Positions 5,137-58,632 of a stretch of 64,000 bases of DNA are shown here, piece after piece (position 1 is the first letter of the stretch; each line of letters opens with the position of its first letter). The stretch is from Nitrospira sp. (GTDB taxonomy: Bacteria; Nitrospirota; Nitrospiria; Nitrospirales; Nitrospiraceae). A program made the translations under genes and the position numbers. Below the pieces are notes generated by a model. The model was not told the DNA's origin and did not search any database. It was given only the letters and a program-made list of their open reading frames with translations. Location of the stretch: the NCBI GenBank assembly GCA_024998645.1, contig JACOEJ010000001.1, positions 40,506 to 104,505 on the forward strand. The letters are read 5' to 3'.

Positions 5137-5358
5137 TTAAGTCTGGAGCTCCCGGTCGTGAACGGCCTGAACTCTATACGTCCTGCCGTCGTCCACGGTC
5201 ATGCGAATCTGCCCGCTCCGGCTTAGATAGTCGACAGCAAGAAAGACCTCGTTCCAACTGAGATGCGGACAAAGCGCGCCGACCTCTTCCAGCGGACAAT
5301 CGGTGCCGAGCTGCTCCAGTGCGTTATAGACCTGCTGGACCATCGTCTCGACCCTCAT
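5137..5358 (-). CDS. Small winged-helix-like protein (paralogue 1)
   Basis: MRVETMVQQ...SWNEVFLAVDYLSRSGQIRMTVDDGRTYRV; GA-rich RBS upstream of 5358; similar to 11615..11866 and 24603..24857. Confidence 0.75.
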   Translation of the reverse strand: MRVETMVQQVYNALEQLGTDCPLEEVGALCPHLSWNEVFLAVDYLSRSGQIRMTVDDGRTYRVQAVHDRELQT

Positions 5359-5415: not shown

Positions 5416-5880
5416 TCAGCGAATCGACGGCCATTTAGATCGGACAAGACCCGCGGTTAACGCGCCGTCCCCAAGCTCCCCTTCCCCACTCACCCCCAGG
5501 CCGACATAGCGGTCGCCCGCGAGCACATGCAGCAGGGCTTGAGATAGTTCCGCATGAAGCGCCGTCTTCTTGAGAATATAGCCGCAAGCCCCCGCCTCGA
5601 ATGCCAGGGTCACGTAGGCCGGCTCCTGAAAGCTCGATAAAATAATAACCCGACTATCCGGCACCTGCGCACTGATCGCCCGCGTCGCGTCGAGGCCATC
5701 CATCTTGGGCATCGAGATATCGGTGAAAATAATGTCCGGCTTCAGCCGTTGCGCGGCTTGCACGAGTGCCTGACCATCCGTCACCGTTCCGACTACCTCG
5801 CCCAATTCGCTTACGAGATCCCGCAAGGCCTTCAGCAGGTCAGGATGATCATCGGCAAGTAAGATACGCGCGCTGGCCAT
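5416..5880 (-). CDS. Receiver-domain response regulator without recognisable output domain
   Basis: LLADDHPDLLKAL...IIFTDISMPKMDGLDATRAI...GYILKK; ends without HTH. Confidence 0.85.
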   Translation of the reverse strand: MASARILLADDHPDLLKALRDLVSELGEVVGTVTDGQALVQAAQRLKPDIIFTDISMPKMDGLDATRAISAQVPDSRVIILSSFQEPAYVTLAFEAGACGYILKKTALHAELSQALLHVLAGDRYVGLGVSGEGELGDGALTAGLVRSKWPSIR

Positions 5881-14344: not shown

Positions 14345-14363
14345 CTGTCGCCATTTGCGCCAG
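14345..14363 (+). promoter_or_regulatory. Candidate enhancer/UAS palindrome 1
   Basis: CTGTCGCCATTTGCGCCAG, 127 bp upstream of a GG-N10-GC element. Confidence 0.65.
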
Positions 14364-14489
14364 GAGCTTTCTCTGAATTGGAGCGCTTTGCGGCAGGAGA
14401 CGGAATGCAACTCGGCTTCTCCTGCGTCTCCAGGGCCCAAAACCCTAACCCTATCAATATTCTCTCCCTGCAACCAGACCTGCAATCAT

Positions 14490-14505
14490 CGGCATGTCGC
14501 TTGCT
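14490..14505 (+). promoter_or_regulatory. Candidate sigma-54 promoter (-24/-12)
   Basis: CGGCATGTCGCTTGCT; GG-N10-GC. Confidence 0.7.
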
Positions 14506-14685: not shown

Positions 14686-14886
14686 ATGTCCGTCGCCAAG
14701 ATCATCGAGATCAGTTCCGAATCGCCGAAGAGTTTTGAGGATGCCATTCAGAACGGGATCGCCCGGGCATCCAAGACCGTGCATAACATCAAATCGGCCT
14801 GGGTGAAGGAGCAGCATGTCGTAGTCGACAACGGGAAAGTTTCTCTCTATCGCGTGGACCTGAAAGTCACCTTTGTGCTGGACTAA
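14686..14886 (+). CDS. Dodecin family protein
   Basis: 66 aa MSVAKIIEISSESPKSFEDAIQNGIARASKTVHNIKSAWVKEQHVVVDNGKVSLYRVDLKVTFVLD. Confidence 0.93.
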   Translation: MSVAKIIEISSESPKSFEDAIQNGIARASKTVHNIKSAWVKEQHVVVDNGKVSLYRVDLKVTFVLD

Positions 14887-18084: not shown

Positions 18085-18100
18085 AGCATCGGCCGTGCCG
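18085..18100 (-). promoter_or_regulatory. Candidate sigma-54 promoter for the USP operon
   Basis: Minus strand CGGCACGGCCGATGCT; GG-N10-GC. Confidence 0.7.
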
Positions 18101-18212
18101 GACTCATTCGATTCGCTGACGATCACAAGCAAGACAATCACCCGCCCTTTCTTCAAGAGAACCGGTGCTTACGCGCAAGGGGCCGTTCTAGGAATCAGTC
18201 CCCGACGAGATG

Positions 18213-18231
18213 CTGTCCTATAATGCGACAG
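18213..18231 (-). promoter_or_regulatory. Candidate enhancer/UAS palindrome 2
   Basis: CTGTCCTATAATGCGACAG, about 113 bp upstream of the minus-strand GG-N10-GC. Confidence 0.7.
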
Positions 18232-24433: not shown

Positions 24434-24452
24434 CTGTCCTATAACGCAACAG
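24434..24452 (+). promoter_or_regulatory. Candidate enhancer/UAS palindrome 4
   Basis: CTGTCCTATAACGCAACAG; near-identical to 18213..18231. Confidence 0.68.
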
Positions 24453-24545
24453 TACCCGATTCATTCTCTCACCTCCGACTCCGGCTCCATGATCGAACCC
24501 GTTGAATCTTCACCAATTGCATTTTTTGGCAAGACCTCTTTTCTT

Positions 24546-24561
24546 TGGCACCGTCGATGCT
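24546..24561 (+). promoter_or_regulatory. Candidate sigma-54 promoter
   Basis: TGGCACCGTCGATGCT; GG-N10-GC. Confidence 0.7.
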
Positions 24562-24602: not shown

Positions 24603-24857
24603 ATGGCGACCGCTCAAGATCTCAGCGCCATTCTCCTGGAGATGGTCGAAGAGACTCCGGATTGCGACGTAGAAGAGCTAACGGCGCACTGCCCCCAGGC
24701 CACGTGGAATCAGGTGTTTTTGGCTCTGGACAACTTGAGTCGTGCAGGGCGAGTGACGCTTCGGCAAGAGGGTCCAGGGCGTTACAAGGTCGGGTTGGCC
24801 TCACAGAGGTCAGTCAATAGTCAGGTTTCTCACAACATTACGCCTAACGCAGTATAG
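24603..24857 (+). CDS. Small winged-helix-like protein (paralogue 3)
   Basis: MATAQDLSAILLEMVEETPDCDVEELTAHCPQATWNQVFLALDNLSRAGRVTLRQEGPGRYKV. Confidence 0.78.
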   Translation: MATAQDLSAILLEMVEETPDCDVEELTAHCPQATWNQVFLALDNLSRAGRVTLRQEGPGRYKVGLASQRSVNSQVSHNITPNAV

Positions 24858-29204: not shown

Positions 29205-29585
29205 TCACCGCAACGTCTTCAGCCAGGCTTGAATGTCGGCCATCTGCTGTTCGGTGATCGCGCCTTTCAACGGTGGCATCACGTGCCGCCCTTCGTACAC
29301 GACTTTCCAAAACGCATGCTCATTGGATAGCACGGGATTGCCCGCTAACCGGGGACCAAGGCCACCTGTGGCACCGGATTTATGACAGACAATACAACTG
29401 GCATTGTAGAGTTCCTCGCCTCTGCTGCTGTCCCCCACAGGACGCATCGACACACTCCCGCTCGATCCAATCGTGTCCGCGTTCTGCGGCCCACCGTCGC
29501 TCGCCCCATTCACAACCCCGTTTCCCGCGACCTCAAGAACGACTAAAGAGAGGACGGCGCAGATCACCCATCTATTCATCGGCAT
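29205..29585 (-). CDS. c-type cytochrome
   Basis: GEELYNASCIVCHKSGATGGLGPRLAGNPVLSNEHAFWKVVYEGRHVMPPLKG. Confidence 0.92.
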   Translation of the reverse strand: MPMNRWVICAVLSLVVLEVAGNGVVNGASDGGPQNADTIGSSGSVSMRPVGDSSRGEELYNASCIVCHKSGATGGLGPRLAGNPVLSNEHAFWKVVYEGRHVMPPLKGAITEQQMADIQAWLKTLR

Positions 29586-29607
29586 CACTCCATTTCGTTT
29601 TCCGGCA

Positions 29608-30036
29608 TCACTTGGGTGCCGCTGCGCCTCCCTTCCTAAGGAGGGCCAGATACGCCAGAGTATCGGCAAGTTCCTGATTCGTCATCGTCGTATCGGGAAA
29701 CATCCCGGTGCCCGGATGGCCCTCACGAACGGCTTTCGCACGCTGCTTGTCGTTTTTCAGATGGAGTGTTTTCGAATTACGGAGATCGGCCGGCGGAGGA
29801 CTCAGGCGGGCAATCAATGCAGCGGTATCGGCGGCTAACTGAGGCCGCTTCTCCATTTGCCCGTCGACACCATGACAGTAGTAACAGACGCCTTTCCCGT
29901 TGAACACCGCTCGCCCGGCACCGGCATTGCCTTGTGCGGAAGTCGACTGGCTTGCCTGCTGCCGCGCCGCTTGAACAGAATGGCCATCACATAAGACAAA
30001 CCCGATCAGGGCAAGACCAACGTAGGATATTCTCAT
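29608..30036 (-). CDS. c-type cytochrome
   Basis: GRAVFNGKGVCYYCHGVDGQMEKRPQLA...GMFPDTTMTNQELADTLAYL. Confidence 0.92.
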   Translation of the reverse strand: MRISYVGLALIGFVLCDGHSVQAARQQASQSTSAQGNAGAGRAVFNGKGVCYYCHGVDGQMEKRPQLAADTAALIARLSPPPADLRNSKTLHLKNDKQRAKAVREGHPGTGMFPDTTMTNQELADTLAYLALLRKGGAAAPK

Positions 30037-30106
30037 CGTGATATTCCTTCTGCGTTAGCTGTTCCGGGCTTACCTCATAGGTGCGGCGGAGATGTGCAGT
30101 AGCCCA

Positions 30107-30457
30107 CTAGTATTTCTCCACTCCCTTTCGTCCTCCCGCATGACAACGAAGACAGTCGGCAAAACGCCCGGGGCCATGAATGCCCTGCGCTTTCGACCGA
30201 AGATTTCTGACCAGATCGTTATCCAACGTCCGGGGGCTGAGGCTCTGGTCTCGTTCCGCCCGGTGACAGTCCCAACAAGTCTTCGCACCGGTGGCGCGAA
30301 AGATCAGATCGCTGTGGGGATTGATTGTCTGGTCAACCGCAACGGGTACCAATAAGGTCTCGTGCGACGCTCCTTCGCTGCCCCCGATCCATACCCCCGC
30401 GACGAAGACCCCCACAAAGAAGCCAGACCATCGAGCAACCCTATCAGGCATGAACAA
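30107..30457 (-). CDS. Small multiheme-type c cytochrome (two CXXCH)
   Basis: AKTCWDCHRAERDQS...FADCLRCHAGGRKGVEKY. Confidence 0.85.
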   Translation of the reverse strand: MFMPDRVARWSGFFVGVFVAGVWIGGSEGASHETLLVPVAVDQTINPHSDLIFRATGAKTCWDCHRAERDQSLSPRTLDNDLVRNLRSKAQGIHGPGRFADCLRCHAGGRKGVEKY

Positions 30458-30483
30458 CGTCCTTCTCCGCCAGGCATCATGCT

Positions 30484-30927
30484 TTAGGCAATCTGCTCCA
30501 TGGCGCGAAACGCTGTCTCGCGCTCCTCTGCGCTGATCATGCGATCCATTTCAGGATAGAGCACCTCCTCTTCCGACATGTTGTGCCGGTCCAGCAAATC
30601 GAGCAGAGTCTCTTCCTCCCGCTCGGTGTCCGGATTCTGCGCCTGGATCTTGCGATAAATGGCTTCCAACCAGTCCCCGATTTCCCGGTGCTCGTTACGC
30701 ATGACAATCGTGGGGCCTCCGCCGGTCATCCCCGACTTTCTCTCCCACAGGGGAAACAACACATCCTCCTCCCACACCACATGCCGCTGCAGTCCCGCCT
30801 TGAACTCAAGAAATGCGCTCTTGGCCTTGGGAAAATCGCTTCGCTTCAGAGTCTGGAAGGATTTGAACAGCGCATCCAGCCGTTCATGGTCTTCGTCAAA
30901 CATGGTGCTGATGGTGCGTTCGGGCAT
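30484..30927 (-). CDS. Hemerythrin HHE domain protein
   Basis: STMFDEDHERLDALFKSF...LQRHVVWEEDVLFPLWE...LLDRHNMSEEEVLYPEMDRM. Confidence 0.93.
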   Translation of the reverse strand: MPERTISTMFDEDHERLDALFKSFQTLKRSDFPKAKSAFLEFKAGLQRHVVWEEDVLFPLWERKSGMTGGGPTIVMRNEHREIGDWLEAIYRKIQAQNPDTEREEETLLDLLDRHNMSEEEVLYPEMDRMISAEERETAFRAMEQIA

Positions 30928-30940
30928 ACACGCTCCCTCC

Positions 30941-31456
30941 CTATGAACTTCGCAGTTTGTATTCCAGATGGCAGGCCACGCAGGCCTTCAACACGTTATT
31001 GAATTGCGGCAGAATCTGCTTGAGATCTTTTGTCGGAATGATGCGGGCAAGCTCCTCCGCGGCCGCATGATGGGCCATGGTCAGGTCATGATAGGCCGGA
31101 GGAAAGTTCCCCGGCTGCTGATTCGCCATCGCCTGCCGATGCATGAAGAAGCCCAGATGTGTTTCCGTTAAACCTTTCGCCAACTCATAGTCTTCATCAA
31201 CCAGCGCATTCATGATCACTTGAATGGTTTCCAGATGCTGCAGCATCACGGCGCGATGTTCTGTTCCGGCTGCCGGCGACAGCGGAATGGCCTGTCTGAC
31301 ATCGGACGTCAGAATAGGATTCGACCGTTGCTCTCCGTGGCGATGTTCGACCTTCGTGCAACCAGCGAAGAACAACACACAGAGAGCTCCAAGACTCGCC
31401 GCTCCAAGAAGCACCTGCTTCCCTTTGTATCTTGATTGCGACCAACTCTGAAACAT
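30941..31456 (-). CDS. Cytochrome c'-like heme protein with C-terminal CXXCH
   Basis: LKQILPQFNNVLKACVACHLEYKLRSS*. Confidence 0.75.
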   Translation of the reverse strand: MFQSWSQSRYKGKQVLLGAASLGALCVLFFAGCTKVEHRHGEQRSNPILTSDVRQAIPLSPAAGTEHRAVMLQHLETIQVIMNALVDEDYELAKGLTETHLGFFMHRQAMANQQPGNFPPAYHDLTMAHHAAAEELARIIPTKDLKQILPQFNNVLKACVACHLEYKLRSS

Positions 31457-31553
31457 TCCAAACCCCTCTCAATAGCATCCAGCTGTTGCTATCAGTAAGT
31501 CAGAGTGCGCCGCTCACCCGCCAAACTATCAATCGGCCTATACCAGGATGATG

Positions 31554-31569
31554 AGCAATGGGCATGCCT
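31554..31569 (-). promoter_or_regulatory. Candidate sigma-54 promoter for cytochrome/hemerythrin operon
   Basis: Minus strand AGGCATGCCCATTGCT; GG-N10-GC with TTGCT. Confidence 0.75.
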
Positions 31570-31682
31570 CCGACCACTCCACCAGAAGCACGTGATTATT
31601 TCACAGAGACAGCAACTTGGCTGACTCTTCTGAAATGTGGTCGATGAGAATGGGGTCAATTGCTCCAGCAGCCCGATCGGTA

Positions 31683-31701
31683 CTGGCGCACAATGCGACA
31701 A
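31683..31701 (-). promoter_or_regulatory. Candidate enhancer/UAS palindrome 5
   Basis: CTGGCGCACAATGCGACAA; 114 bp upstream of the minus-strand GG-N10-GC. Confidence 0.7.
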
Positions 31702-31795: not shown

Positions 31796-34474
31796 ATGGG
31801 ACAGCATTACCTACGCAGCCTTTTTTCTCCCAGGTCGGTAGCCGTCATCGGTGCCAGCGAGCGTACCAATGCAGTGGGCGAGATCGTATTCCGGAACATC
31901 CTGGGGAGTGGGTATACGGGCTTACTCTATCCGGTAAATCCAGCCCATCAGAAAGTGCAGGGCCGGCGTGCCTACGCCACAATAAAAGAAATCGAAACCC
32001 CAGTCGAGTTGGCCGTGATATGCACTGAGGCCGAGACCGTGCCCGATATCATCGAGGCCTGCGGCAAACATGGCGTGCGCGCTGCGATGGTGCTCTCCGC
32101 CGGTTTCACCGAAGTGGGTACCCGAGGCGCTGCGCTCGAGCGCACGATGCTGGCCAATGCCAAGAACTATGGGGTGCGTATCATCGGCCCCAATTGCTTG
32201 GGGATTATCCGTACAGCGATCGGGCTCAACGCCACGTTTTTCAAAGGCAGCGTCAAGGCTGGGAACCTTGCGCTGGTTTCTCAGTCGGGGGCCTTGTGCA
32301 CGGCTATCCTCGACTGGGCACCGGCCAACGACATCGGCTTTTCAAGTGTGGTGTCGATGGGTGCCGCATCCGATGTGGACTTTGGTGAAATTCTCGACTA
32401 TCTCGCGACCGACGTGGAGACCGGCAGTATTCTGGTCTATGTCGAAGGCGTCCGCAAAGCGCGTGGCTTCATGAGTGCCTTGCGCGCTGCCGCAAGAAGT
32501 AAACCAGTGTTCGTGATCAAAGTCGGGCGTCATGATGCCGGCTCAAGAGCGGTGATGTCGCACACGGGCGCGCTGGTTGGTTCGGATGACGTGTTCGACG
32601 CCGCGCTGCGTCGCGCCGGAGTGGTCCGCGTGGCATCGATCGGCGGGCTGTTTTCTGCCGCGAAGTCACTCGCCTCGCCCCACAGGTACCGCGGCAACCG
32701 TCTGGCCATCATCACCAACGGCGGCGGACCCGGCGTGATGGCAATCGACCGCGCGGTGGATCTGGGTGTGAGCGTCGCCAGCCTGTCTCCCGAAACCGTC
32801 GAGAGGCTCAACCAGGTGTTACCTGTTACCTGGTCGCACAACAACCCGGTAGACATCATCGGCGACGCCACGCCGCAGCGCTATCGTGACGCCGTAGGCA
32901 TTTGCATGGAGGACCCCGGCGTGGATGGTGTGCTAGTGATTCTCACCCCCCAGGCAATGACACAGCCGCTGGAAGTCGCCAAATTGCTGGTCGATGACGC
33001 AGGAAAATTCAGCAAGCCGCTGCTCACCAGTTGGATGGGGGCTTCTCAAACCATGGACGGGCGGGCACAGTTCGTTCAGGCTGGAATTCCATCATTTAGC
33101 AACCCTGAAGCGGCAGTCGAGGCCTATTCTTACATCACCGCCTATTACCGCAATCAGCGCCTGTTGGCACAAGTACCGGAACCCTTGTCGCACCACGATG
33201 TGCCGGATGTAGCGGGTGCACGCATGGTGATTGAGACCGTATTGGCGGAACGGCGCAAGGTGTTGTCTGAAATGGAATCGAAGGCGCTACTGTCGGCCTT
33301 CCATATTCCGGTGGCGAATACGGTGGTTGCCCGTTCTCCCGGCGAGGCACTCCTGCTGGCGGAGGAGTTCGGTTTCCCGGTGGCAATGAAAGTCAATTCG
33401 CCGGACATCACCCACAAATCCGATGCCGGCGGTGTGAAGCTAAACCTGATGAATGCCGCCGCAGTTCGCGCGGCCTATAACGAGATTCTCGAGGAGGTGA
33501 AGGCAAACCGTCCGGATGCACGAGTCGACGGCATCGCCCTCCAGCCGATGGTGCGTAAGCCCAACGGGCGCGAATTGATGGTAGGGGTCATCTCGGATCC
33601 GATTTTCGGCCCGGTTATCAGCTTCGGCGCGGGAGGCACCACAGTGGAAGTGCTGAGGGATCGCGCCATTGCACTGCCCCCTCTGAACGGTTTTCTGGCA
33701 AGAGAACTGATCGGTGGCACGCGCATCGCAAAACTGCTCGGTTCGTTTCGGCATATGCCGCCGGTGCAGATGGAGGCGCTGGAAAGTCTGCTTCTACGGG
33801 TTTCCGAGATGGTGTGCGAACTGCCATGGTTAAAGGAAATGGATATCAATCCACTGATTGTGGATGAGCATGGCCTGATAGTGGTCGATGCGCGCGTCGT
33901 GGTGGATTTTGCGCCGGTCTCAGCCGACCGTTACGCCCACATGGCGATTCATCCTTACCCGGCCCACCTGGTCACACATTGGCAATTGCCCGATGGCACG
34001 GACATCAACATTCGTCCTATGCGTCCCGAAGACGCCGCGATCGAACAGGAATTTGTGCGCCACCTGTCGGAAGAAGCGAAATACTTCCGGTTTATGCACG
34101 CCGTGCAAGAGCTTTCCGAACCCATGCTGGTGCGTTTTACCCAACTCGACTACGACCGTGAGTTAGCGCTGATCGCCGTGACCGAAGAGCAGGGCCGGGA
34201 AGTTGAAATCGGCGTATGCCGCTATGCCATCAATCCAGATGGAGAATCATGCGAATTTGCGCTGGTGGTCAGCGACCAGTGGCAGCACAAGGCGATCGGC
34301 CACAGGCTGATGGGCAGCTTGATCGACGCAGCCCGCAGCAAGGGGCTAAAGGCTATGGAGGGCGAAGTCATGGCAAGCAACCACGAAATGCTTAAATTAG
34401 TGGCAACGCTTGGCTTTACCGTTGCCACCAGTCAGGAAGACTCATCGATCAAGAAGATCACCAAGGTATTGTAG
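31796..34474 (+). CDS. NDP-forming acetate/acyl-CoA ligase fused to GNAT acetyltransferase (Pat-like)
   Basis: LFSPRSVAVIGASERTNAVGEIVFRNIL; SHTGALVGSDDVFDAALRRAGVVRV; ATP-grasp FPVAMKVNSPDITHKSDAGGVKLNL; C-terminal GNAT region. Confidence 0.94.
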   Translation: MGQHYLRSLFSPRSVAVIGASERTNAVGEIVFRNILGSGYTGLLYPVNPAHQKVQGRRAYATIKEIETPVELAVICTEAETVPDIIEACGKHGVRAAMVLSAGFTEVGTRGAALERTMLANAKNYGVRIIGPNCLGIIRTAIGLNATFFKGSVKAGNLALVSQSGALCTAILDWAPANDIGFSSVVSMGAASDVDFGEILDYLATDVETGSILVYVEGVRKARGFMSALRAAARSKPVFVIKVGRHDAGSRAVMSHTGALVGSDDVFDAALRRAGVVRVASIGGLFSAAKSLASPHRYRGNRLAIITNGGGPGVMAIDRAVDLGVSVASLSPETVERLNQVLPVTWSHNNPVDIIGDATPQRYRDAVGICMEDPGVDGVLVILTPQAMTQPLEVAKLLVDDAGKFSKPLLTSWMGASQTMDGRAQFVQAGIPSFSNPEAAVEAYSYITAYYRNQRLLAQVPEPLSHHDVPDVAGARMVIETVLAERRKVLSEMESKALLSAFHIPVANTVVARSPGEALLLAEEFGFPVAMKVNSPDITHKSDAGGVKLNLMNAAAVRAAYNEILEEVKANRPDARVDGIALQPMVRKPNGRELMVGVISDPIFGPVISFGAGGTTVEVLRDRAIALPPLNGFLARELIGGTRIAKLLGSFRHMPPVQMEALESLLLRVSEMVCELPWLKEMDINPLIVDEHGLIVVDARVVVDFAPVSADRYAHMAIHPYPAHLVTHWQLPDGTDINIRPMRPEDAAIEQEFVRHLSEEAKYFRFMHAVQELSEPMLVRFTQLDYDRELALIAVTEEQGREVEIGVCRYAINPDGESCEFALVVSDQWQHKAIGHRLMGSLIDAARSKGLKAMEGEVMASNHEMLKLVATLGFTVATSQEDSSIKKITKVL

Positions 34475-37246: not shown

Positions 37247-37262
37247 AGCCAGGTTCATGCCA
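37247..37262 (-). promoter_or_regulatory. Candidate sigma-54 promoter for YtxH-chaperone operon
   Basis: Minus strand TGGCATGAACCTGGCT; GG-N10-GC. Confidence 0.65.
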
Positions 37263-37376
37263 GACTCGACCAGCCGGTCATCCGCCGATTGCGCCGGTTT
37301 GATGAGTGCTTACAGAGCGGAAAGGAGATGAAGAAGAGCGGTACTGGGGCATTCCAGGTCTTGAAGGGAAAGAGGC

Positions 37377-37395
37377 CTGATGCAAAAGGCCCCAG
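37377..37395 (-). promoter_or_regulatory. Candidate enhancer/UAS palindrome 6 (diverged)
   Basis: CTGATGCAAAAGGCCCCAG; 115 bp upstream of the minus-strand GG-N10-GC. Confidence 0.5.
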
Positions 37396-39262: not shown

Positions 39263-39622
39263 TTAGAATACGACACTGCGGTCCCGCTCCGCGACCGCTT
39301 TGATGTAATCCGGCATGCCTTTAATAGACGCGCCGGCGACCAGATCCGCTCCGCCGATTTGCCTGGCCACCGCGCAGGCGCCGCAGACCCATATGGGAAT
39401 ATTTGCAGTTTGCACCCCGGCAAGCAAGTCTTTTAACGGAGTCAAATTCACGCCATGGACATGATCGGCTGTGCCCTTCCGTCCCAGCGTGACCGCTTCA
39501 TTCCAGAGCCAGAGGACGACATCGTGCCCCTGCTCCTTGGCCGCTTTCGCCGCGACGAACGGGAGCGTCGCCATCGTGGGATCATCCGTGCCGCGGCTCC
39601 CAGAAATAATAAACGTCGCCAT
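39263..39622 (-). CDS. DsrE-family protein
   Basis: MATFIISGSRGTDDPTMATLPFVAAKAAKEQGHDVVLWLWNEAV...IWVCGACAVARQIGGADLVAGASIKG. Confidence 0.85.
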   Translation of the reverse strand: MATFIISGSRGTDDPTMATLPFVAAKAAKEQGHDVVLWLWNEAVTLGRKGTADHVHGVNLTPLKDLLAGVQTANIPIWVCGACAVARQIGGADLVAGASIKGMPDYIKAVAERDRSVVF

Positions 39623-39677
39623 TAATTGCTCCTCCGTGAATCGTCACTCGTCAAGCGTCGCTCGCAAATCGGACGGT

Positions 39678-39717
39678 GAGGCGTCTCTCGCGCATTACGC
39701 TTCGAGAGAGACGCCTC
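39678..39717. repeat. Perfect 12-bp inverted repeat, possible terminator
   Basis: GAGGCGTCTCTC ... GAGAGACGCCTC, 12 bp beyond the stop of the 39729 gene. Confidence 0.6.
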
Positions 39718-39728
39718 CCGCGCTTGCG

Positions 39729-40739
39729 CTACTTCGGCCCTTTGAACGTCGTCTTCAAATACGCCATGACATCGGCCACGCCCTGTTGCCCGATGGTCAG
39801 ACCCCAATAGGGCATGTTGGCGGACTTTCCCATCGCCGCGCCGCCGTGATTGATCATGTTGTAGAGATATTCCGTCGGCACTTCGCTGAAATTGATGTTG
39901 GCGTGAATCGCCGGTTTCGGCTCAAGAGTGGGGGCCGCAGGTCCGTCGCCTTTTCCGGTGGCTCCGTGACACTGCATGCAGTACTCCTTGTAAATGATCT
40001 TGCCGCGCCCCGGGCTCGCCTTTGCGAATTCCGGCGCCGTCCAAGGCTCGTAATACGTGAAGTCAGGGACGCCCTGCGCGGCGAGATAGCCGATGACCGC
40101 CCGCAATTGCGGCTCGGTGGCGTCGGCCAGAAATTCCCCGGTGTGAATGATGAAATCCTGCGGGTTCTGGCCGAAACGGAACAGCCAATCCATGTTGTAC
40201 CGCTGTCCGGATTTCTCCAATGCAATGCTCTGCTGTCCGCCGATGAGCTTCCCGTTTTCTTCGATCGTATGACAGCCGAGACAGGCGTGCGCCTTGTAAG
40301 CCATCCCGCCGAACGCCACTTCATACTTGGAGACCTTCCCAACATCGAAAGCCCCGACTTTCACTCGGGGATCCTTGTTGTGCTCGGCAAAATAATCGGC
40401 GATGCCGTTGGCCTCGGCCTCCGATACGGTCACATGTTTATGCGCTTCCTGCGATTGATCCCAGCGATACCCTTTGACGTACAGAGGCGCTTCTTTGCCG
40501 GTCAACCATCGAATCAACCAGGCCCGGTTATACTTGCTCCCGGCCCAGATAAGATCGGGCGCCTTGAGATTGAAACGGGATTCAGCCTGGCCTTCCATCC
40601 GGTGACATTGGACGCAGTTCTGCTGGACCAGCTCCTTCGCCTTCGGCAGATCGGCGCCGAACAACACCGGCGGAATCGACAGCGCTCCCACCAACGTCAG
40701 CAACGCCCCTCCGACAACCACGCTCTTTCTCACGTTCAT
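39729..40739 (-). CDS. Triheme c-type cytochrome
   Basis: QQNCVQCHR, HACLGCHT, KEYCMQCHG. Confidence 0.93.
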   Translation of the reverse strand: MNVRKSVVVGGALLTLVGALSIPPVLFGADLPKAKELVQQNCVQCHRMEGQAESRFNLKAPDLIWAGSKYNRAWLIRWLTGKEAPLYVKGYRWDQSQEAHKHVTVSEAEANGIADYFAEHNKDPRVKVGAFDVGKVSKYEVAFGGMAYKAHACLGCHTIEENGKLIGGQQSIALEKSGQRYNMDWLFRFGQNPQDFIIHTGEFLADATEPQLRAVIGYLAAQGVPDFTYYEPWTAPEFAKASPGRGKIIYKEYCMQCHGATGKGDGPAAPTLEPKPAIHANINFSEVPTEYLYNMINHGGAAMGKSANMPYWGLTIGQQGVADVMAYLKTTFKGPK

Positions 40740-40775
40740 GCCGCTCCTTTCCTCTGTAGTGAACTCCGCTCTCCG

Positions 40776-41393
40776 CTACTTCGTCAGTAACCATGTGTGA
40801 ACATCGGCAATATCCTGCTGACTCAGCACCGATCCCCAGGCCGGCATCGGCCCCCGCCCATGCAACACAGTTTCCCAGAACAGATCGTCCTGTTTCAGGA
40901 TCGGATTCTTCGCCAGCTTCGGTCCCATGCCACCGGTTGCACCGGCGCCGTGACAGGCCTGGCAATTGTGTTCGAAGATGCCCGCCCCTCTTGTCGATAC
41001 GCCGACGAGCGGACCGGTGTCCGCCGGCTCTTGTGTCAGCGGCTCCGCTTTTCTCAATTCATGATCAAGCGTCGGCAGATGATCCGGCGCAGCCGGGTGA
41101 TAGCGGGCGGACAGATACCGCACGAGAAGGTCGGCTTCATCGTCAGCAATCTCCGCCCCCCAATGTTTCATCTTGTCGACGGTCGCTGCCCAGCGGTCTT
41201 TCGGCAGGCGCTGTTGAGACACCAGATCAGGACTGTGGCACACCGAGCAACGCGCAATGATCAACCCTTCGGCACGCGGCGCCAGCGCGGCGCTCACCGA
41301 CGCCAGATCGTCTTCTTGCGCCGCCGTCATCGCAGCCAGCCCTGCAAGCCCCAAGACGAACAGGCCAATGAGTGGAAGGCTCCGCGTCATCAT
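40776..41393 (-). CDS. Diheme c-type cytochrome
   Basis: ARCSVCHSPDLVSQQRLPKDRW and NCQACHGAGATGGMGPKL. Confidence 0.93.
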   Translation of the reverse strand: MMTRSLPLIGLFVLGLAGLAAMTAAQEDDLASVSAALAPRAEGLIIARCSVCHSPDLVSQQRLPKDRWAATVDKMKHWGAEIADDEADLLVRYLSARYHPAAPDHLPTLDHELRKAEPLTQEPADTGPLVGVSTRGAGIFEHNCQACHGAGATGGMGPKLAKNPILKQDDLFWETVLHGRGPMPAWGSVLSQQDIADVHTWLLTK

Positions 41394-42574
41394 AACGCCA
41401 CCGTAATAGCAACATGGTCCCACCCGTTCCACAAGAATCCGCCGGGGTTCCACGGGCTCTCTTGGGGTTGGACCTGTCCATTGGCATCCGTCGCTCGACA
41501 GAGGATCGTCACGGCACCAGCTGTCTTGGGCCTCCACAGAAACTGCCATTGCCGCCAGGCGTAGGGCTCGTCCTCGCCGACCAGCCGGGCCTGTTCCCAG
41601 GTCTTGCCGTCGTCGAACGAGAGCTCCACGGTCGCGACAGCGGCGTCTCCGCTCCAAGCCACGCCCTGCACGGTGACCGGTCCCCGTCCGACCTGGTCGC
41701 CGTTTGCCGGCAAGGCGATCAGCGACTTCACCACCATCGCTTCGACGGGAACCATCGAGGTCCCCGGCAGACCGGAGTTCGGCTGAATCGCCGTGACCGG
41801 CACGCGGTAGGCCGTCTGCATGTAATAGCCCTTAGCTTCATCCGCCTGCACCGTGATATCCGTCAGCCACTTGGTGCAGGAGTCCGCCATCCAGCCGGGA
41901 GTAATGACCCGCAACGGCGCGCCATGCAGCAGCGGCAAGGGCCGCCCGTTCATGTCATAAGCAAGGATCGTGTCCGGATGAACGGCTTTCTCCAGCGGAA
42001 TGCTTCGAGTAAATAACGGGACAGACGATACAACCGGGCGATCGGCGCCCTGGAGTTGCACATGTTTCCCATTGGGGCGTACACCGGCCTTGGCCAGCAC
42101 GTCCCGCAGCCGCACACCGGTCCACTGCGCATTGCCGACCGCGCCGCGCTCCCATTGCACACCCGGCACTTTCGGACGATGGAATGCGCGCCCGTTGCCG
42201 CTGCATTGGACGACCGCCGTAATTGTCACCTGCTCGAATTCTTTGAGATCCTTGAGCGTGAGTTCCAACGGATGTTCGATCAATCCCCCGACATGCAGCC
42301 GCCAATTGGCCGCCGCAATCAATTCAGGCGCGGGCGGGCCGAAATGACTCCGCACGAAAAACCGATGATTGGGGGTCAGATAGGACGTGAATTCGCGCAC
42401 GGGCGTTTCTGCATCGTACGGCCGCATCACGCGAACGGTCTGCGGGCCGGTTTCCGGTGAAGCCGTCTGCTCGGCCGGCGCCGGTCGCACCTGATGCCAG
42501 ACCGCGAGTCCGCCTAGGATTTGGGCCATGCGCTGCCAGAGGGTTCGACGTGACAGTGAGAGGGATTCGCTCAT
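41390..42574 (-). CDS. Sulfite oxidase-family molybdopterin oxidoreductase, Tat-exported
   Basis: SRRTLWQRMAQILGGLAV; LTLKDLKEFEQVTITAVVQCSGNGRAFHRPKVPGVQWERGAVGNAQWTGVRLRDVLAKAG; moco-dimerisation domain. Confidence 0.92.
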   Translation of the reverse strand: MSESLSLSRRTLWQRMAQILGGLAVWHQVRPAPAEQTASPETGPQTVRVMRPYDAETPVREFTSYLTPNHRFFVRSHFGPPAPELIAAANWRLHVGGLIEHPLELTLKDLKEFEQVTITAVVQCSGNGRAFHRPKVPGVQWERGAVGNAQWTGVRLRDVLAKAGVRPNGKHVQLQGADRPVVSSVPLFTRSIPLEKAVHPDTILAYDMNGRPLPLLHGAPLRVITPGWMADSCTKWLTDITVQADEAKGYYMQTAYRVPVTAIQPNSGLPGTSMVPVEAMVVKSLIALPANGDQVGRGPVTVQGVAWSGDAAVATVELSFDDGKTWEQARLVGEDEPYAWRQWQFLWRPKTAGAVTILCRATDANGQVQPQESPWNPGGFLWNGWDHVAITVAL

Positions 42575-42984
42575 GCATGCACTCCCGGTGCATGAGGATT
42601 GAGCTGGATCGTGACGGCCGGGGCACCGGAGAGAGATTGGTGCACCGTGCACCCCTGGGCGACCTTCAACAAGCGCTCTTTCATGTCCGGCGTGAGACGA
42701 TGCGGCAACCGGATCGCCAACATCATCTTCCCCACGCGATGAGGCCCTTCTGCCATCTCCCACTCGGCATCCACCGCGAGGCCTTCGCGCGAAATGTCAT
42801 GCCGCGCGCAGAACTGACCGACGAAGTAGCCGACACAGCTGGCGACCGAGCCGACAAAGAGTTCGACCGGACTCATACCCGCATTGTGGCCGCCGTCTTC
42901 TTTCGGCTGATCGGTCACCACACGATGCTGACCGCTGGTGATGTCATAGCGTGTACCACCGTGATAGGCCACAGTAAGATTCAT
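42571..42984 (-). CDS. OsmC-family protein
   Basis: MNLTVAYHGGTRYDITSG...SPVELFVGSVASCVGYFVGQFCARHDIS. Confidence 0.9.
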   Translation of the reverse strand: MNLTVAYHGGTRYDITSGQHRVVTDQPKEDGGHNAGMSPVELFVGSVASCVGYFVGQFCARHDISREGLAVDAEWEMAEGPHRVGKMMLAIRLPHRLTPDMKERLLKVAQGCTVHQSLSGAPAVTIQLNPHAPGVHA

Positions 42985-43030
42985 CGCACACCTCCCGACT
43001 ACGCTCGATTGCCGCCTGACAAACGACGAT

Positions 43031-43885
43031 TTAGTACGGTATATCCGCCGGCTTGCCACCCTTCGGCCAATCGAGCTGCTTGCCGGGGAAATCCGGACGC
43101 GGCTGGCTGTTCACATAGGCCGCCACATCGAAGGCTTCATCGTCGGTCAGTGTCCAACCCCAGCCCCTCGGCATATTGGACTTGATAAACGACGCCGCCA
43201 CCGTGACGCGAGCCATCCCGGCTGCAACATTGTAGGAATGCGGACCCCAGACCGGCGGCGCGGCCATCGTCCCCTGTCCGTCCGCGCCATGGCAGAACAC
43301 ACACTTCGTGGCAAACTGCTTCTTGCCGTTCACGAGATCCGGAATGTGACTGGAGGTCAGACGTGGAATCCCTCGCCACGGCACCGCACTGCCCGGCGGG
43401 ACGTTTTGCGATAACCATTCGATATAGGCCACGACGGCCTGCAACTTAGAACTATCGGGGGGAAGGGCCTTGCCGTTCATACTGCGTTCGAAACATTCGT
43501 TGATGCGGTCCGCCAGCGTCATCTGCCGGTCCGCCCGCGCCCGATACTCCGGATACAAACGGCTGATGCCCACAAAAGACGCGGTGTTCGGATTCATGCC
43601 GGCATCGAGATGACAATTCGTACAATTCAGCCGATTGCCCACATAGGGACGCCCATAGTCCTGCGTATCGACCACGATCTTGTAGCCTAAACGTATCTGT
43701 TCCCCTCGCTGATCGCCCGGGATCGCATCCGGCGATGGCGGCGCAAACAACATATCAGCGGACGTTAACCCGTCCCCCCGGTGGCCGGACTCAAGAGTCG
43801 AAACGGCCTTCGGGGTTGGCGTGCACCCCCCCTCGCCGACCAAAAATCCAACCACCATAACGCAGGTCCAGAAATATGATCGCAT
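43031..43885 (-). CDS. Diheme c-type cytochrome (lipoprotein-like N-terminus)
   Basis: VGNRLNCTNCHLDAGMNPNTASF and FATKCVFCHGADGQGT. Confidence 0.92.
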   Translation of the reverse strand: MRSYFWTCVMVVGFLVGEGGCTPTPKAVSTLESGHRGDGLTSADMLFAPPSPDAIPGDQRGEQIRLGYKIVVDTQDYGRPYVGNRLNCTNCHLDAGMNPNTASFVGISRLYPEYRARADRQMTLADRINECFERSMNGKALPPDSSKLQAVVAYIEWLSQNVPPGSAVPWRGIPRLTSSHIPDLVNGKKQFATKCVFCHGADGQGTMAAPPVWGPHSYNVAAGMARVTVAASFIKSNMPRGWGWTLTDDEAFDVAAYVNSQPRPDFPGKQLDWPKGGKPADIPY

Positions 43886-44210: not shown

Positions 44211-44576
44211 TTACTCCTGCCGGAACGTTCGCACATAGGCCAATACATCCCAGATTTCGTCGTCTGATAATGCAGTACTCCATGCCCCCATCGCCGTATT
44301 AGGCTTGCCATCGTGAATTCGTTTGAAGAGGCTGGCATCCAACCGGCTCTGGATACCCGGGGAGGTCAGGTCGGCCGGCTTTGGAACGAGGTGAAGTCCC
44401 ATCGTTCCCTTGCCGTCGATCCCATGACAGCGGATGCAGGTATTGGAATAGATTTCTCGACCGGTCACCGCGTCATATTCTTTCCCTGACGCGGGAAGAT
44501 CTTTCAATCCGCCGCCACCGAACCCGACCGAGACCATCCCGATCACAACGCTGAATATGATTCCGACAACACGCAT
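44211..44576 (-). CDS. c-type cytochrome
   Basis: GREIYSNTCIRCHGIDGKGTMGLHLVPKPADLTSP. Confidence 0.92.
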   Translation of the reverse strand: MRVVGIIFSVVIGMVSVGFGGGGLKDLPASGKEYDAVTGREIYSNTCIRCHGIDGKGTMGLHLVPKPADLTSPGIQSRLDASLFKRIHDGKPNTAMGAWSTALSDDEIWDVLAYVRTFRQE

Positions 44577-44605: not shown

Positions 44606-44621
44606 TGCGAGCGATGTGCCA
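44606..44621 (-). promoter_or_regulatory. Candidate sigma-54 promoter for cytochrome/sulfite oxidase operon
   Basis: Minus strand TGGCACATCGCTCGCA; GG-N10-GC. Confidence 0.72.
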
Positions 44622-44744
44622 TCGGTGCGGAAGTCAGGCGAGAAAACTATTCAATGATCCCAGTAGGTTAGCCTCTATGCCTGAAGGACGGATGGGCGCG
44701 TGAACTTCAACTGGCGAGAAACACCCCAGGCCAGCTTTCACACA

Positions 44745-44763
44745 TTGTCCCAGGATGCCCCAA
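44745..44763 (-). promoter_or_regulatory. Candidate enhancer/UAS palindrome 7
   Basis: TTGTCCCAGGATGCCCCAA; about 125 bp upstream of the minus-strand GG-N10-GC. Confidence 0.58.
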
Positions 44764-53232: not shown

Positions 53233-55035
53233 TCAGTGCGTATCCATGATCGCTCTCAGCTCACTCCCGCTGATGACTTCCCGTTCCAGCAGGACCCGCG
53301 CACCTTCGACCAAGGCAGCTTTGCGCTGCTCGAGTAGCTGCGTCACCCGCTCGTACTGTTCGTCGATAATCCGCCGCACTTCACAATCGATCTCCCGGGC
53401 CGTCTCTTCGGAGTAGTCCCCTTTTTCAGAGGCTACCGGAATCTGGACGAACTGCGGCTGCCGTTCCCGTTCCAGCGTAATGGTGCCCAGTCTCTCGCTC
53501 ATTCCGTAGGCCTTCACCATGCTCTTGGCAATGTCCGTCGTTTTGACCAGATCGTTCTGCGCGCCGGTGGAGGCTTCGCCGAAGATCATTTCCTCGGCAA
53601 TCCGTCCCCCTAAGAGCACCGCAATCTTGTTCTCCAACTCGGACTTCGTCATCAGAAACCGGTCCTCTGTGGGCAGTTGCAGCGTGTACCCGAGCGCCGC
53701 CACGCCGCGAGGAATGATCGAGATTTTCTGCACCTGGTCCGAGCCCGGCAACGAGATCGCCACCAACGCATGACCGGTCTCATGATAGGCCACCCGTTCT
53801 TTTTCCATCTTATTGAGGACCCGATTCTTCTTTTCCAATCCGGCGATCACCCGTTCCACCGCTTCCTGCAACTCCGAAATCCCCACCAGGTCTTTGCCTC
53901 GCCGAACTGCCAGCAAGGCCGCCTCATTGATGATATTGGCCAGATCGGCGCCGGAGAACCCGGGCGTCATTGCCGCGATGTTCTCGAGATCCGCATCAGG
54001 ACCCAACGGCACCTGCTTGGCATGCACCAGGAGGATGGCCAGACGGCCGATCTTGTCCGGACGGTCCACGACGACGTGGCGATCGAACCGGCCGGCGCGC
54101 AAGAGCGCCGGATCGAGAATTTCCGGACGGTTGGTCGCCGCCATCAAGATGACGCCGATGCGCGGATCGAACCCGTCCATCTCAACCAGCAATTGATTGA
54201 GCGTCTGCTCGCGTTCTTCGTGGGCCATAGGCCCCATGCCCCGCGCTTTTCCCAACGCATCAAGTTCATCGATGAAGATGATGCAGGGCGCCTTCAGCTT
54301 CGCCTGTTCGAAGAGATCCCGCACGCGCGCCGCCCCCACTCCCACAAACATTTCCACAAACTCCGAGCCACTGATGCTGAAGAACGTCACCCCGGCTTCT
54401 CCGGCAACCGCCCGGGCCAACAGCGTCTTGCCGGTTCCCGGCGGGCCGACCAATAAGATGCCTTTGGGGATCTTTCCCCCCAGTCGGGTGAACTTCTCCG
54501 GAGTCTTGAGGAACTCAATCACCTCGCGGAGTTCCTCCTTCGCTTCGTCCACGCCTGCGACATCGGCAAAGGTAATCTTGATATCGGTCTCAGCGTAAAT
54601 CTTCGCTTTGGACTGGCCCACCTGCATAAAGCCACCCTGGGTCTGCCCCAACCGGCGAATGAAAAAATACCAAATGGCCCCGAAAATGGCGGCCGGAAGA
54701 ATCCAGGACAAGACATCACGCCAGAAGGTGGTCTCGATGACTCCGACGAACTTCACTCCGTGCTGATTCAACTCCCGAACGAGATCCTGATCTTCGACCC
54801 GAATGGTCGAAAACAGCTTCGGCTCCTTGGCATCGCCCTCCGGCTTAAGCGTCCCCGTCAAGGTGTGGCTGCCGACCGCAACCTCGGCAACTTTGCCGGC
54901 CACCACGAGCTGCCTGAATTCGCTGTAGGGAAGCTCTTCGATCTTCTGGAGAGCATGGATCAAGTCATGGACGAGGATCACCGCCCAGATGGCGAGGAAG
55001 ACGTACCAGATGGAAAAAGAGATTTTCTTATTCAT
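53233..55035 (-). CDS. ftsH: ATP-dependent zinc metalloprotease FtsH
   Basis: [55 protein letters not shown]. Confidence 0.97.
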
Positions 55036-57410
55036 CGCCGGGCTCCCGGCCATGTCCAATTGCGAATCTCCGGCAGGTCCTCGCCATGTTCGGTGATGTA
55101 TTGTTTGTGTTCGATGAGTTTGTCACGCATCGCCTGCCTCACATAATCGGCGCGGGACCCGTGCAATGGTACCCGGTCGATGACGTCCCCGGCCAGATGA
55201 AAGCGGTCCAGATCGTTCATCACCACCATGTCGAACGGGGTACTCGTCGTGCCTTCCTCCTTGTAGCCCCGCACATGTAAATTCCCATGGTTGGTTCGCC
55301 GGTACGTGAGCCGATGGATCAACCAGGGATAGCCATGGAACGCGAAGATGATCGGCTTATCGACGGTGAAGAGCGCATCGAACTCCTTGTCGCTCAGTCC
55401 ATTGGGATGCTCTCTGGTCGGTTGCAACTTCATGAGATCCACGACGTTGACGACCCGGACCCTCAATTCCGGCAGGTGCTCGTGCAGCAATGCGACCGCC
55501 GCCAGCGTTTCCATCGTCGGCACATCTCCGCAACAAGCCATGACCACGTCCGGTTCGCTGTCCTGGTCGTTGCTCGCCCACTCCCAAATGCCGATACCGG
55601 CCGTGCAATGTTTGATCGCGGAGTCCATGTCCAGCCACTGCGGCGCTGATTGCTTGCCGGCGACGATCACGTTGACGTGGTTGCGGCTGCGCAGGCAATG
55701 GTCCGTGACGGACAACAAGGTGTTGGCATCGGGCGGAAGAAAGACCCGGATCACCTCCGCCTTCTTATTGACGACGTGATCGATAAAACCGGGATCCTGA
55801 TGGCTGAACCCGTTATGGTCCTGCCGCCAGACGTGGGACGACAACAGATAATTGAGCGATGCGATCGGCCGCCGCCAGGGGATGTGGCGGCAGACCTTCA
55901 ACCATTTGGCATGCTGGTTGAACATCGAGTCGATAATGTGGATGAACGCCTCATAGCAGGAAAAGAATCCGTGCCGGCCGGTTAGAAGATAGCCCTCCAG
56001 CCACCCCTGGCACTGGTGCTCGCTGAGCATTTCCATCACCCGACCGTCCGGTGCCAGGTGATCGTCGTACGGATAGCGATCCGCCACCCAGGCGCGATCG
56101 GTCACCTCCAGGACATCCTGCCAGCGATTCGAGTTGTTCTCATCCGGGCTGAAGAGGCGGAAGTTGCGGCTGTCCATATTGATTTTCATCGTATCGCGCA
56201 GGAACTGTCCCATGAGACGGGTGGACTCCGCGTCAACCCCGCCCGGCTTGATCACCTTGACGGCGTACGTGCGGAAATCCGGCAGGCGCAAATCCTTGAG
56301 GAGGAGCCCGCCGTTGGTCTGGGGATTGGCGCTCATGCGACGCGCCTTCTTAGGTGCGAGCTCTGCGAGTTCCGGCTTGAGTCGTCCGGCCTTGTCGAAC
56401 AACTCCCTCGGTTTGTAGCTCTTCATCCACTTTTCAAGAATCTTGATGTGCCCCGGCTTACCCATATCGCCCATGGGCACCTGGTGAGAGCGCCAGTAAT
56501 CCTCCGCTCGCTTGCCATCGATCAACTTCGGACAGGTCCAGCCCTTCGGCGAGCGCAGGACGATCATCGGCCATCGCGGACGGCCGGTGAATCTTTTCGT
56601 GCGGGCTGCGCGCTGAATCTTCTTGATCTCCGCGACGACGGCATCCAGCGTAGCCGCCATGAGTTGATGCATCGTGCGGGGATCCCGCCCTTCGACGAAA
56701 TAGGGCCTGTAGCCGTACCCGCGAAACAGCTGATCCAGTTCCTCGTGGCTGATTCGGGCCAGGACCGTGGGATTCGCAATCTTGTATCCGTTCAGATGAA
56801 GGATGGGCAGTACCGCACCGTCCGTAGCGGGATTCAGAAACTTGTTCGAATGCCAACTCGTCGCAAGCGGACCGGTTTCCGCTTCGCCGTCGCCGACCAC
56901 GCAAGCGGCAATAAGGTCGGGATTGTCGAACACGGCCCCATAGGCATGCGACAACGAATACCCTAACTCGCCGCCTTCATGGATGGAACCCGGCGTTTCC
57001 GGCGCCACGTGACTCGGGATACCGCCGGGAAATGAAAACTGTTTAAAAAGCCGCTTCATCCCCGTTTCGTCCTGCGAGATGTTCGGATAGACCTCGCTGT
57101 AGGTGCCTTCCAGATAGGCATTCGCCACAATTCCAGGACCGCCGTGCCCCGGACCGGTGATATTGATCATATCCAGGTCGTGCTGCGTGATCACCCGGTT
57201 CAAATGCATATAGATAAAGTTGAGCCCCGGCGTGGTTCCCCAGTGCCCCAATAGCCGCGGCTTGATGTGCGCACGCGTCAGCGGCTTCTTCAGGAGCGGG
57301 TTATCGTAGAGATAGATCTTACCGACCGACAGGTAGTTCGCCGCCCGCCAATAGGCATCCATCTTCTTGAGCAGATCCTGTTTGAGCGGTTTCTTCTTTG
57401 TCAGCAGCAT
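55032..57410 (-). CDS. xfp: Phosphoketolase
   Basis: [96 protein letters not shown]-type region. Confidence 0.96.
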
Positions 57411-57426
57411 CGTCTTCTCACCGCTC

Positions 57427-58632
57427 CTATCCCGTCTTAGCCAGTAACGGAAGCACGGATTGCGCAATCTCACGCTCTTCATCCGTATGGATGACACGCA
57501 CGCTCACCCGGCCACCCTCTGTCGAAATCACTGCGTCATTGATCCCGTTGCGCCGGGCATCAATCGTGATGCCGAGAAACCCCAAACCCTCACAAATCCT
57601 GGTGCGGACGACCGGCGAGTGCTCGCCGATTCCGGCACTGAACACCAAGGTGTCCACACCGCCTAACGCGGCGGCCAACGCGCCGATGGCTTTCTTCGCC
57701 TGATAACAAAACAGCGCGACCGCTTCGGCGGCCCGCGGGTCATGCTCCTCCAGGGCGAGTAAATCGCGTATATCAGAACTGCTCTCCGACAGGCCGAGCA
57801 GGCCGGACTCTGAATTGACCATCGTGTGGAATTGCTCCACGGTCAGGCCTTCCGTTCTCGTGAGATAGGACATCAATCCCGGGTCGAGATCGCCAGAGCG
57901 CCGGCTCATAGGCAGACCCGAAGTCGGCGTGAACCCCATGGTCGTCTCGATGCTCTTCCCGCCCAGCACCGCCGTCATGCTGGCCCCGTTGCCCAGATGC
58001 GCGAGAATGATCCGCCCCTCGGCCTCCCCCTGCTTGCCGATTCTGGCCAACTCCTTCATCAGGAACGCATAGGATAGTCCGTGAAAGCCGTACCGTTGGA
58101 TGCCCAGCTTGTCATACCTTCTCGGGATCGCCAGCAGGTGAGCCACGCGCGGCATGTCGCGATGAAAGGCCGTGTCGAAACAGGCGATTTGAGGCACCCG
58201 TGGATAACGCCGGCTGAACACTTCCATGAGACCGATTTCTGCCGGCAGATGTTCCGGATCATAGGGGCTGATTCGCCGCAACTCAGCGATCAATGCCGGA
58301 GTCACCGGCTCAGGCTGGCTGTACTTCATACCGCCATGGACAATGCGATGCCCCGCAGCCAGCAGAGCGGATGCACCGACTCGTTGCTCAATCCGATCCA
58401 GTAGAGGCTCGACACAGGCCGCATGATCAGCCCCCTGTATCGCGATCTGCTCTGTCCGGCTGCTCAGGACATCCGTCATCGACAGCCGGGTGCCGGGCAA
58501 TCCGATGCGTTCGACCTGACCTTCCATGAGACGACGCAGCGGCGGCTTAGCCTCAAACAACGCCAGCTTGATACTGGACGAACCGGCATTGATCGCCAGA
58601 ATTCCAGGAGCCGGCTGAGGCAATGACGACAT
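57427..58632 (-). CDS. ackA: Acetate kinase
   Basis: [70 protein letters not shown]. Confidence 0.96.

Follow-up and report, generated by a model that had tools for sequence, protein, structure and literature searches.

Nitrite oxidizers look aerobic, and a cluster of five small redox genes in a draft Nitrospira genome bears on the question of how they come through anoxia. The window analysed here, i.e., the whole stretch of DNA of 64 kb (G000:C22:40506-104505), is part of this 3.2 Mb genome. The cluster is best explained, with a probability of roughly 0.6, as an operon of a sigma-54/NtrC-type regulon that probably responds to low oxygen or a redox signal and combines protection by a hemerythrin-type (HHE) protein with periplasmic electron transfer.

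Gene layout and immediate setting

The five minus-strand genes occupy window positions 29205-31456 (Table 1), and their order, strand and coordinates, as given in the preliminary description of this DNA, were all verified with the open reading frames and Pfam. From CPRIME to CYTC1m the genes are separated by gaps of 13, 32, 70, and about 28 bp, the start of CYTC1m being probably the ATG at 29579 (a longer TTG open reading frame begins at 29669). No convincing terminator was found between the five genes, terminator-like matches in the region being at the level of shuffled DNA, and a search of the operon region for a sigma-70-like site was negative. From this layout, we infer that the five genes are co-transcribed as a single operon. 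Both monoheme proteins match the Cytochrom_C family of Pfam, and the diheme protein is barely over the cut-off of a paired-CXXCH model (20.8 vs 20.6 bits); the signal peptides of these three proteins were read by eye.

Two other parts of the window deserve mention. A molybdopterin sulfite-oxidase-like protein, multiheme and SoxA/TsdA-like cytochromes, and a DsrE protein are encoded at 39263-43858, a group that is kept beside the operon in many relatives. The protein encoded at 26336-26836 matches the NMD3 family significantly (E 2e-9), which is odd for a bacterium, as this family is known from eukaryotes and archaea.

Table 1. Genes and predicted regulatory elements at the locus and elsewhere in the window (window coordinates)
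Feature	Coordinates	Strand	Remarks
CYTC1m, monoheme cytochrome c	29205..29579	-	124 aa, apparent signal peptide
CYTC1, monoheme cytochrome c	29608..30036	-	142 aa, apparent signal peptide
Diheme protein, two CXXCH	30107..30451	-	114 aa, apparent signal peptide
HHE hemerythrin-type diiron protein	30484..30927	-	147 aa, without signal peptide
CPRIME, class II (cytochrome c'-like) lipoprotein cytochrome	30941..31456	-	171 aa, lipobox FAGC, one CVACH heme site
Sigma-54 -24/-12 promoter AGGCATGCCCATTGCT	31554..31569	-	rpoN in genome; conserved in relatives
Enhancer-type upstream activator site (UAS), palindrome TTGTCGCATTGTGCGCCAG	31683..31701	-	predicted, conserved
ADP-forming acetate-CoA ligase-like protein fused to GNAT domain	31802..34474	+	divergent neighbour of the operon
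Dodecin (14686-14886) promoter: UAS CTGTCGCCATTTGCGCCAG, site CGGCATGTCGCTTGCT (14490)	14345..14505	+	predicted regulon member
Universal stress protein (18043-17153) promoter: UAS CTGTCGCATTATAGGACAG, site CGGCACGGCCGATGCT (18100)	18085..18231	-	57 bp before gene
Promoter of small gene 24603, then HSP20: UAS CTGTCCTATAACGCAACAG, site TGGCACCGTCGATGCT (24546)	24434..24561	+	57 bp before gene
YtxH (37205-36894) promoter: UAS CTGGGGCCTTTTGCATCAG, site TGGCATGAACCTGGCT (37262)	37247..37395	-	57 bp before gene
Cytochrome c (44576-44211), possible member: weak UAS TTGGGGCATCCTGGGACAA, site TGGCACATCGCTCGCA (44621)	44606..44763	-	45 bp before gene

The lipoprotein cytochrome CPRIME

The product of the first gene was initially called cytochrome c'-like, to be compared with cytochrome c' by structure prediction, and its predicted fold bears this out in part. 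The model is good in the core and moderate as a whole (pLDDT 74); it shows a four-helix bundle (helices 61-86, 90-112, 120-142, and 145-165) with a C-terminal CXXCH, the CVACH heme site at residues 159-163, as in the cytochrome c' fold. The sequence likeness, however, is confined to the C-terminal helix: the PF01322 cytochrome c' match barely passes its cut-off (26.7 vs 26.5 bits) and covers the last 46 residues, hhalign against cytochrome c' gives a probability of 52% over 34 columns, and none of the NCBIfam models matches. In Foldseek comparisons, the best matches among heme proteins are cytochromes c', but the E values are about 0.01 and up, the TM scores are 0.33-0.49, and PsbQ bundles score similarly.

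In a species-wide genome collection, CPRIME occurs only in Nitrospira/Nitrospirota records, bar one labelled Nitrospinaceae and one labelled Nitrosospira. Seven residues (Met71, His74, His106, His123, His129, His130, and Glu134) do not vary among 16 sequences, the most distant of which has 38% identity, and, judged from the sequence, the single heme site does not explain them. Met71 lies in the first core helix and would be compatible with a six-coordinate electron-transfer heme; the earlier suggestion that the c'-like protein buffers NO is weakly favoured by its fold, while Met71 may speak against it. CPRIME copies at three loci, L076 (G034:C24), L099 (G013), and L078 (G017), are broken by stops or frameshifts, as is one hemerythrin, which suggests that parts of the genus can do without CPRIME. 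Other Nitrospirales have a more distant family of CPRIME paralogues (L205-L222), whose genes lie next to those of other cytochromes and lack the hemerythrin neighbour.

The HHE hemerythrin-type protein

The second gene encodes an unmistakable member of PF01814 (E 2e-17, 64.2 vs 25.3 bits), modelled as an all-helical protein with a pLDDT of 94. Its ligand pattern within the helical bundle, H, HxxxE, H, HxxxE, is that of the PF01814 type, and the ligands H14, H49xxxE53, H80, and H115xxxE119 are invariant in 22 sequences. Canonical O2-carrying hemerythrin binds its diiron center with five His, one Glu, and one Asp (PMC9388753); in the 22-sequence alignment, the second His four residues after H80 that belongs to this five-His set is absent. 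Therefore, while the protein is indeed of the hemerythrin type, the O2 buffering that had been proposed for it becomes uncertain, because its ligand set is HHE rather than five-His. The hemerythrins of most relatives end in an EDRYNACCSxH-like tail with paired cysteines, and those of the window's clade are without the tail.

The closest solved fold is that of the Mycobacterium kansasii HLP (6q09), with a TM score of 0.72 and 21% identity over the fold alignment. Since this protein is an NO peroxidase (PMC8913304), since the HHE protein is also partly similar to YtfE (a partial match to the YtfE/RIC NCBIfam models, 41.8 vs a cut-off of 254 bits), and since CPRIME, among heme proteins, comes closest in fold to cytochromes c', the operon might serve in nitrosative defence, with the HHE protein destroying NO or peroxide and the c'-like cytochrome binding periplasmic NO, so that the nitrite oxidizer is shielded. 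We consider this unlikely: the sequence likeness of CPRIME to cytochrome c' is limited to the surroundings of CXXCH, its invariant Met71 may fill the sixth heme position, and the company of dodecin, universal stress protein, YtxH, and, in relatives, POR genes (see below) looks more like survival at low energy or low oxygen than NO detoxification.

The NCBIfam model of PA2171 from Pseudomonas aeruginosa aligns more fully than the YtfE models and nearly over the full length (residues 9-145, E 1.2e-6), and PA2171 has been reported as a ribosome-binding repressor of translation (PMC13041383). By analogy, the HHE protein might slow translation through ribosome binding when the cell is starved or anoxic, with the cytochromes co-regulated and otherwise unrelated; a regulon with a universal stress protein would fit such a dormancy function. 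This is a distinctly improbable alternative, as the score is far under the cut-off (28.4 vs 190 bits), all six HHE ligands are invariant, implying metal chemistry, and hemerythrin is steadily paired with a cytochrome gene (25/30). Protection by the HHE protein coupled with periplasmic electron transfer, under sigma-54 control, remains the preferred reading, and the control region is considered next.

Promoter and upstream activator site

The -24/-12 element before CPRIME bears a GG-N10-GC core and is close to the TGGCACG-N4-TTGCW consensus (AGGCATG-CCCA-TTGCT). Taken alone, it is not unique: it had been singled out as the best sigma-54 match in the window, a ranking that we reject, as the window contains several sites with equal or higher scores and shuffled DNA up to four single sites of this score per 64 kb (the scoring weights are approximate literature values). 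What distinguishes the promoter is its pairing with the UAS, which deviates from the consensus CTGTCGCA-N3-TGCGACAG in one of 14 positions and lies 132 bp upstream of the -24 element. The palindrome and the -24/-12 site together reach a summed score of 37.0, against 22.7 for the best pair in ten shuffles, and the claim of a sigma-54-type promoter with an upstream palindrome is thereby upheld, the pair being far above chance and conserved in relatives.

In two related genomes (G025 and G030), the UAS is identical at 19/19 bases and the -24/-12 block is invariant, while the outer flanks have diverged on both sides; the upstream genes differ among the three species, and in G025 the same promoter precedes hemerythrin, CPRIME being absent. 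The genome contains rpoN (one gene with Sigma54_DBD) and 26 matches to PF00158, typical of enhancer-binding activators, of which more than 20 are strong. Regulation of the operon via sigma-54 and an enhancer-bound activator is, therefore, predicted with high confidence. That ordinary co-located redox genes run from housekeeping promoters behind a chance match is hardly credible. A lone -24/-12 site as good as this one does turn up a few times in 64 kb of shuffled DNA, but the UAS and site at fixed spacing are absent from shuffles, the pair has been kept while its flanks diverged and is seen again ahead of genes with coherent functions, and no sigma-70-like site was found in the region.

A predicted regulon

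A joint search of the window for UAS and site placed 31569, 18100, and 14490 at the top, with zero to two matches in each shuffle. With a UAS matrix trained on other loci only, six window promoters stand out, all of them intergenic and each before a gene on the same strand; their summed scores range from 20.9 to 38.8, and five exceed every shuffle (best shuffle 22.7). The promoter of the cytochrome c gene at 44576 is within noise, because its score falls in the best-shuffle range. Since the UAS recurs before the dodecin, universal stress protein, and YtxH genes (Table 1), the operon appears as one unit of a predicted sigma-54 regulon, and its membership in a regulon with these three genes is predicted with a confidence only slightly below that of sigma-54 control itself. 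The 24603 product matched no Pfam family. This 84-aa protein (24603-24857, plus strand) and the 73-aa protein encoded at 5137-5358 on the minus strand look like paralogues, with the motifs CPxLSWNEVFLAVDYLSRSG / CPQATWNQVFLALDNLSRAG. On the adjoining segment of the same contig (L140, C22:20001-40000), positions 3350, 8441, and 10128 carry three intergenic sigma-54-like sites with weak UAS matches.

Beyond the window, pairs were sought in 79 named loci plus the window (UAS with at most 2 mismatches, sigma-54 score of at least 12, 40-300 bp allowed between them). In these 0.87 Mb, 32 pairs were found, 31 of them spaced 129-145 bp, as compared with no pair in three shuffles; most of the 32 pairs, which correspond to 27 distinct combinations, are orthologous promoters and not independent events. 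The perfect UAS is present in 11/79 genomes, all of the genus Nitrospira, with one match in the reversed control. In the window's own genome, a UAS scan at 3 mismatches gave 44 places vs 38 in the reversed control and is therefore uninformative, so that only matches with at most 2 mismatches are useful; of the latter, 3/5 lie on the window's contig.

Arrangements in relatives

The promoter pair or a close variant stands directly before CPRIME-hemerythrin at L144, L148, L149, L151, and L195, several loci of this direct arrangement having an apparent arsenic-resistance operon upstream (by eye), and farther upstream in others. In Candidatus Nitrospira defluvii FP929003 (L188), the UAS and sigma-54 site are followed by the genes for YtxH, POR gamma, alpha, and beta, CPRIME, hemerythrin, the diheme protein, a b561-like membrane protein (below the Pfam cut-off), and a multiheme cytochrome. 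Many relatives share this arrangement, with YtxH and 2-oxoacid:ferredoxin oxidoreductase subunits ahead of CPRIME-hemerythrin; the POR subunits were recognised by PF01558 plus 4Fe-4S, PF01855, and TPP_enzyme_C.

Hemerythrin is the next gene at 50/59 CPRIME loci, and POR gamma lies within 4.5 kb upstream at 21/59. In a hemerythrin-centred set, a CYTC1-type cytochrome follows in 25/30 cases and POR is upstream in 5/30, CYTC1 being the most constant downstream partner of hemerythrin across the genus. Most CPRIME-less genomes retain hemerythrin-CYTC1, and therefore this pair is the core. In the window's own clade, POR is outside the operon, and two POR gamma genes are found elsewhere in the genome. 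The perfect UAS with a strong sigma-54 site also precedes a second POR operon (L231), and genes for a hypE-like protein and a cytochrome c flank a perfect UAS with a sigma-54 site (L223, L234).

A candidate activator

At two loci (L228, L229), the perfect UAS precedes the gene of a 459-aa REC-AAA-Fis activator of the NtrC type. Orthologues are present in 23/49 genomes at a strict threshold, and most of their genes are preceded by two tandem UAS copies that lie 32 bp from each other ahead of the start codon; in the window's clade, the upstream site is weak (5 mismatches). Behind the orthologue of this genome (C1:10170-11546) come genes for a PAS histidine kinase, a receiver protein, and another sigma-54 activator; a globin domain was sought in the PAS kinase beside the Nitrospira activator and none was found. 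The REC-AAA-Fis protein is a candidate regulator of the regulon, because it would regulate its own gene through the same operator, which is an argument and not proof.

Other possibilities were discarded. The window's response regulators at 5416 and 6043 (154 and 215 aa) are too short and, therefore, cannot hold a sigma-54 activation domain plus receiver and HTH; no PF00158 match was found on the window's contig. On contig C104, a match to the UAS in the vicinity of two activators was dropped since it is inside a coding region.

Proposed function and signal

According to the reading preferred here, sigma-54 RNA polymerase would transcribe the five genes as one operon after an NtrC-family activator has bound the palindrome about 130 bp upstream and acted on the -24/-12 site. 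The regulon would also cover the universal stress protein, dodecin, and YtxH genes, probably with those of a chaperone and cytochrome c as well; in relatives, it would take in those of the ferredoxin-dependent 2-oxoacid oxidoreductase. The gene content, together with the NmpR regulon of Myxococcus described below, makes falling oxygen or redox imbalance a rather likely signal. The context of universal stress protein, HSP20, dodecin, and, in relatives, ferredoxin oxidoreductase agrees in a general sense with the redox-stress buffering that had been suggested for the operon.

For the cytoplasmic HHE diiron protein, the most likely task is to remove O2, peroxide, or NO, or else to support iron in O2-labile [4Fe-4S] enzymes, e.g., pyruvate/2-oxoglutarate:ferredoxin oxidoreductase. 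Whether it protects ferredoxin-dependent enzymes is evenly balanced, the POR linkage in relatives and the analogy with Campylobacter jejuni HerA being the basis for this idea. CPRIME, the diheme protein, and the two monoheme cytochromes would carry electrons in the periplasm; as the HHE protein is cytoplasmic and the cytochromes are periplasmic, they need not share one reaction. We infer which activator is at work, that the signal is oxygen or redox state, and what chemistry each protein performs; taken together, the operon most likely protects O2-labile Fe-S/ferredoxin metabolism and moves electrons around oxic/anoxic shifts.

More tentatively, one may think of a dedicated Nitrospira sigma-54 low-oxygen programme, in which the C1:10170-11546 activator, acting on the CTGTCGCA-N3-TGCGACAG operator, induces POR, the HHE protein, the Nitrospirota-restricted class II cytochrome, and stress proteins. 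If true, such a programme would ready an aerobic nitrifier for anoxic fermentation and re-oxygenation. A comammox Nitrospira has been proposed to ferment to acetate with POR (PMC7078480); the open-licence literature searched describes neither a regulator nor an operator of Nitrospira POR fermentation. In the window, phosphoketolase and acetate kinase genes, with an FtsH-like protease (by eye), form a minus-strand run at 53233-58632 and represent a possible second acetate route near the regulon genes. They and the acetate-CoA ligase-like gene at 31802 fit the acetate idea, which does not imply membership in the regulon. With a defined operator, promoter, and candidate activator, survival of anoxia can be put to the test in cultures of N. 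defluvii or N. moscoviensis, and existing transcriptomes can be re-examined for a regulon.

Comparison with known systems

In a full-text search of open-licence papers, none was found to discuss a Nitrospira hemerythrin operon or this sigma-54 regulon. With class II cytochromes c (cytochrome c', c-556), CPRIME shares the predicted four-helix bundle, the C-terminal CXXCH, and a PF01322 match just past the cut-off, but it is a lipoprotein and its N-terminal half is not recognisably related by sequence. By structure comparison, the HHE protein has the same fold as the mycobacterial HLPs (Rv2633c / M. kansasii HLP), at the low identity given above.

In Campylobacter jejuni, the hemerythrin HerA protects Por and Oor (PMC4257069). 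Like HerA/HerB, the Nitrospira protein is tied to pyruvate/2-oxoacid oxidoreductases, in C. jejuni by mutant phenotype and in Nitrospira by operon linkage in relatives. Unlike them, it has ligands of the HHE type instead of the five-His set, POR is absent from the window's operon, and the Nitrospira system is known from sequence.

A close parallel in architecture is the sigma-54 hypoxia regulon of Myxococcus xanthus, which is controlled by the NtrC-like regulator NmpR and includes a universal stress protein and hemerythrin (PMC11841059). The two differ in several respects. The NmpR site is GCGCA-N5-TGCGC (PMC11841059), while that of Nitrospira is TGTCGCA-N3-TGCGACA; NmpR targets include the cbb3 oxidase and HemN, whereas the predicted ones of Nitrospira include YtxH, dodecin, small cytochromes, and, in relatives, the ferredoxin oxidoreductase; and the NmpR type works with a heme-binding protoglobin kinase, whereas the Nitrospira REC-AAA-Fis protein is encoded beside a PAS kinase with no detected globin domain. 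Hypoxic induction has been shown for the NmpR regulon and is predicted for that of Nitrospira, the two being likened by architecture and half-sites. In both, an NtrC-family activator (a candidate in Nitrospira), sigma-54 promoters, and a palindromic enhancer with CGCA...TGCG half-sites come together, the operon of the regulator bears its own sites, and a universal stress protein and a single-domain hemerythrin are among the targets.
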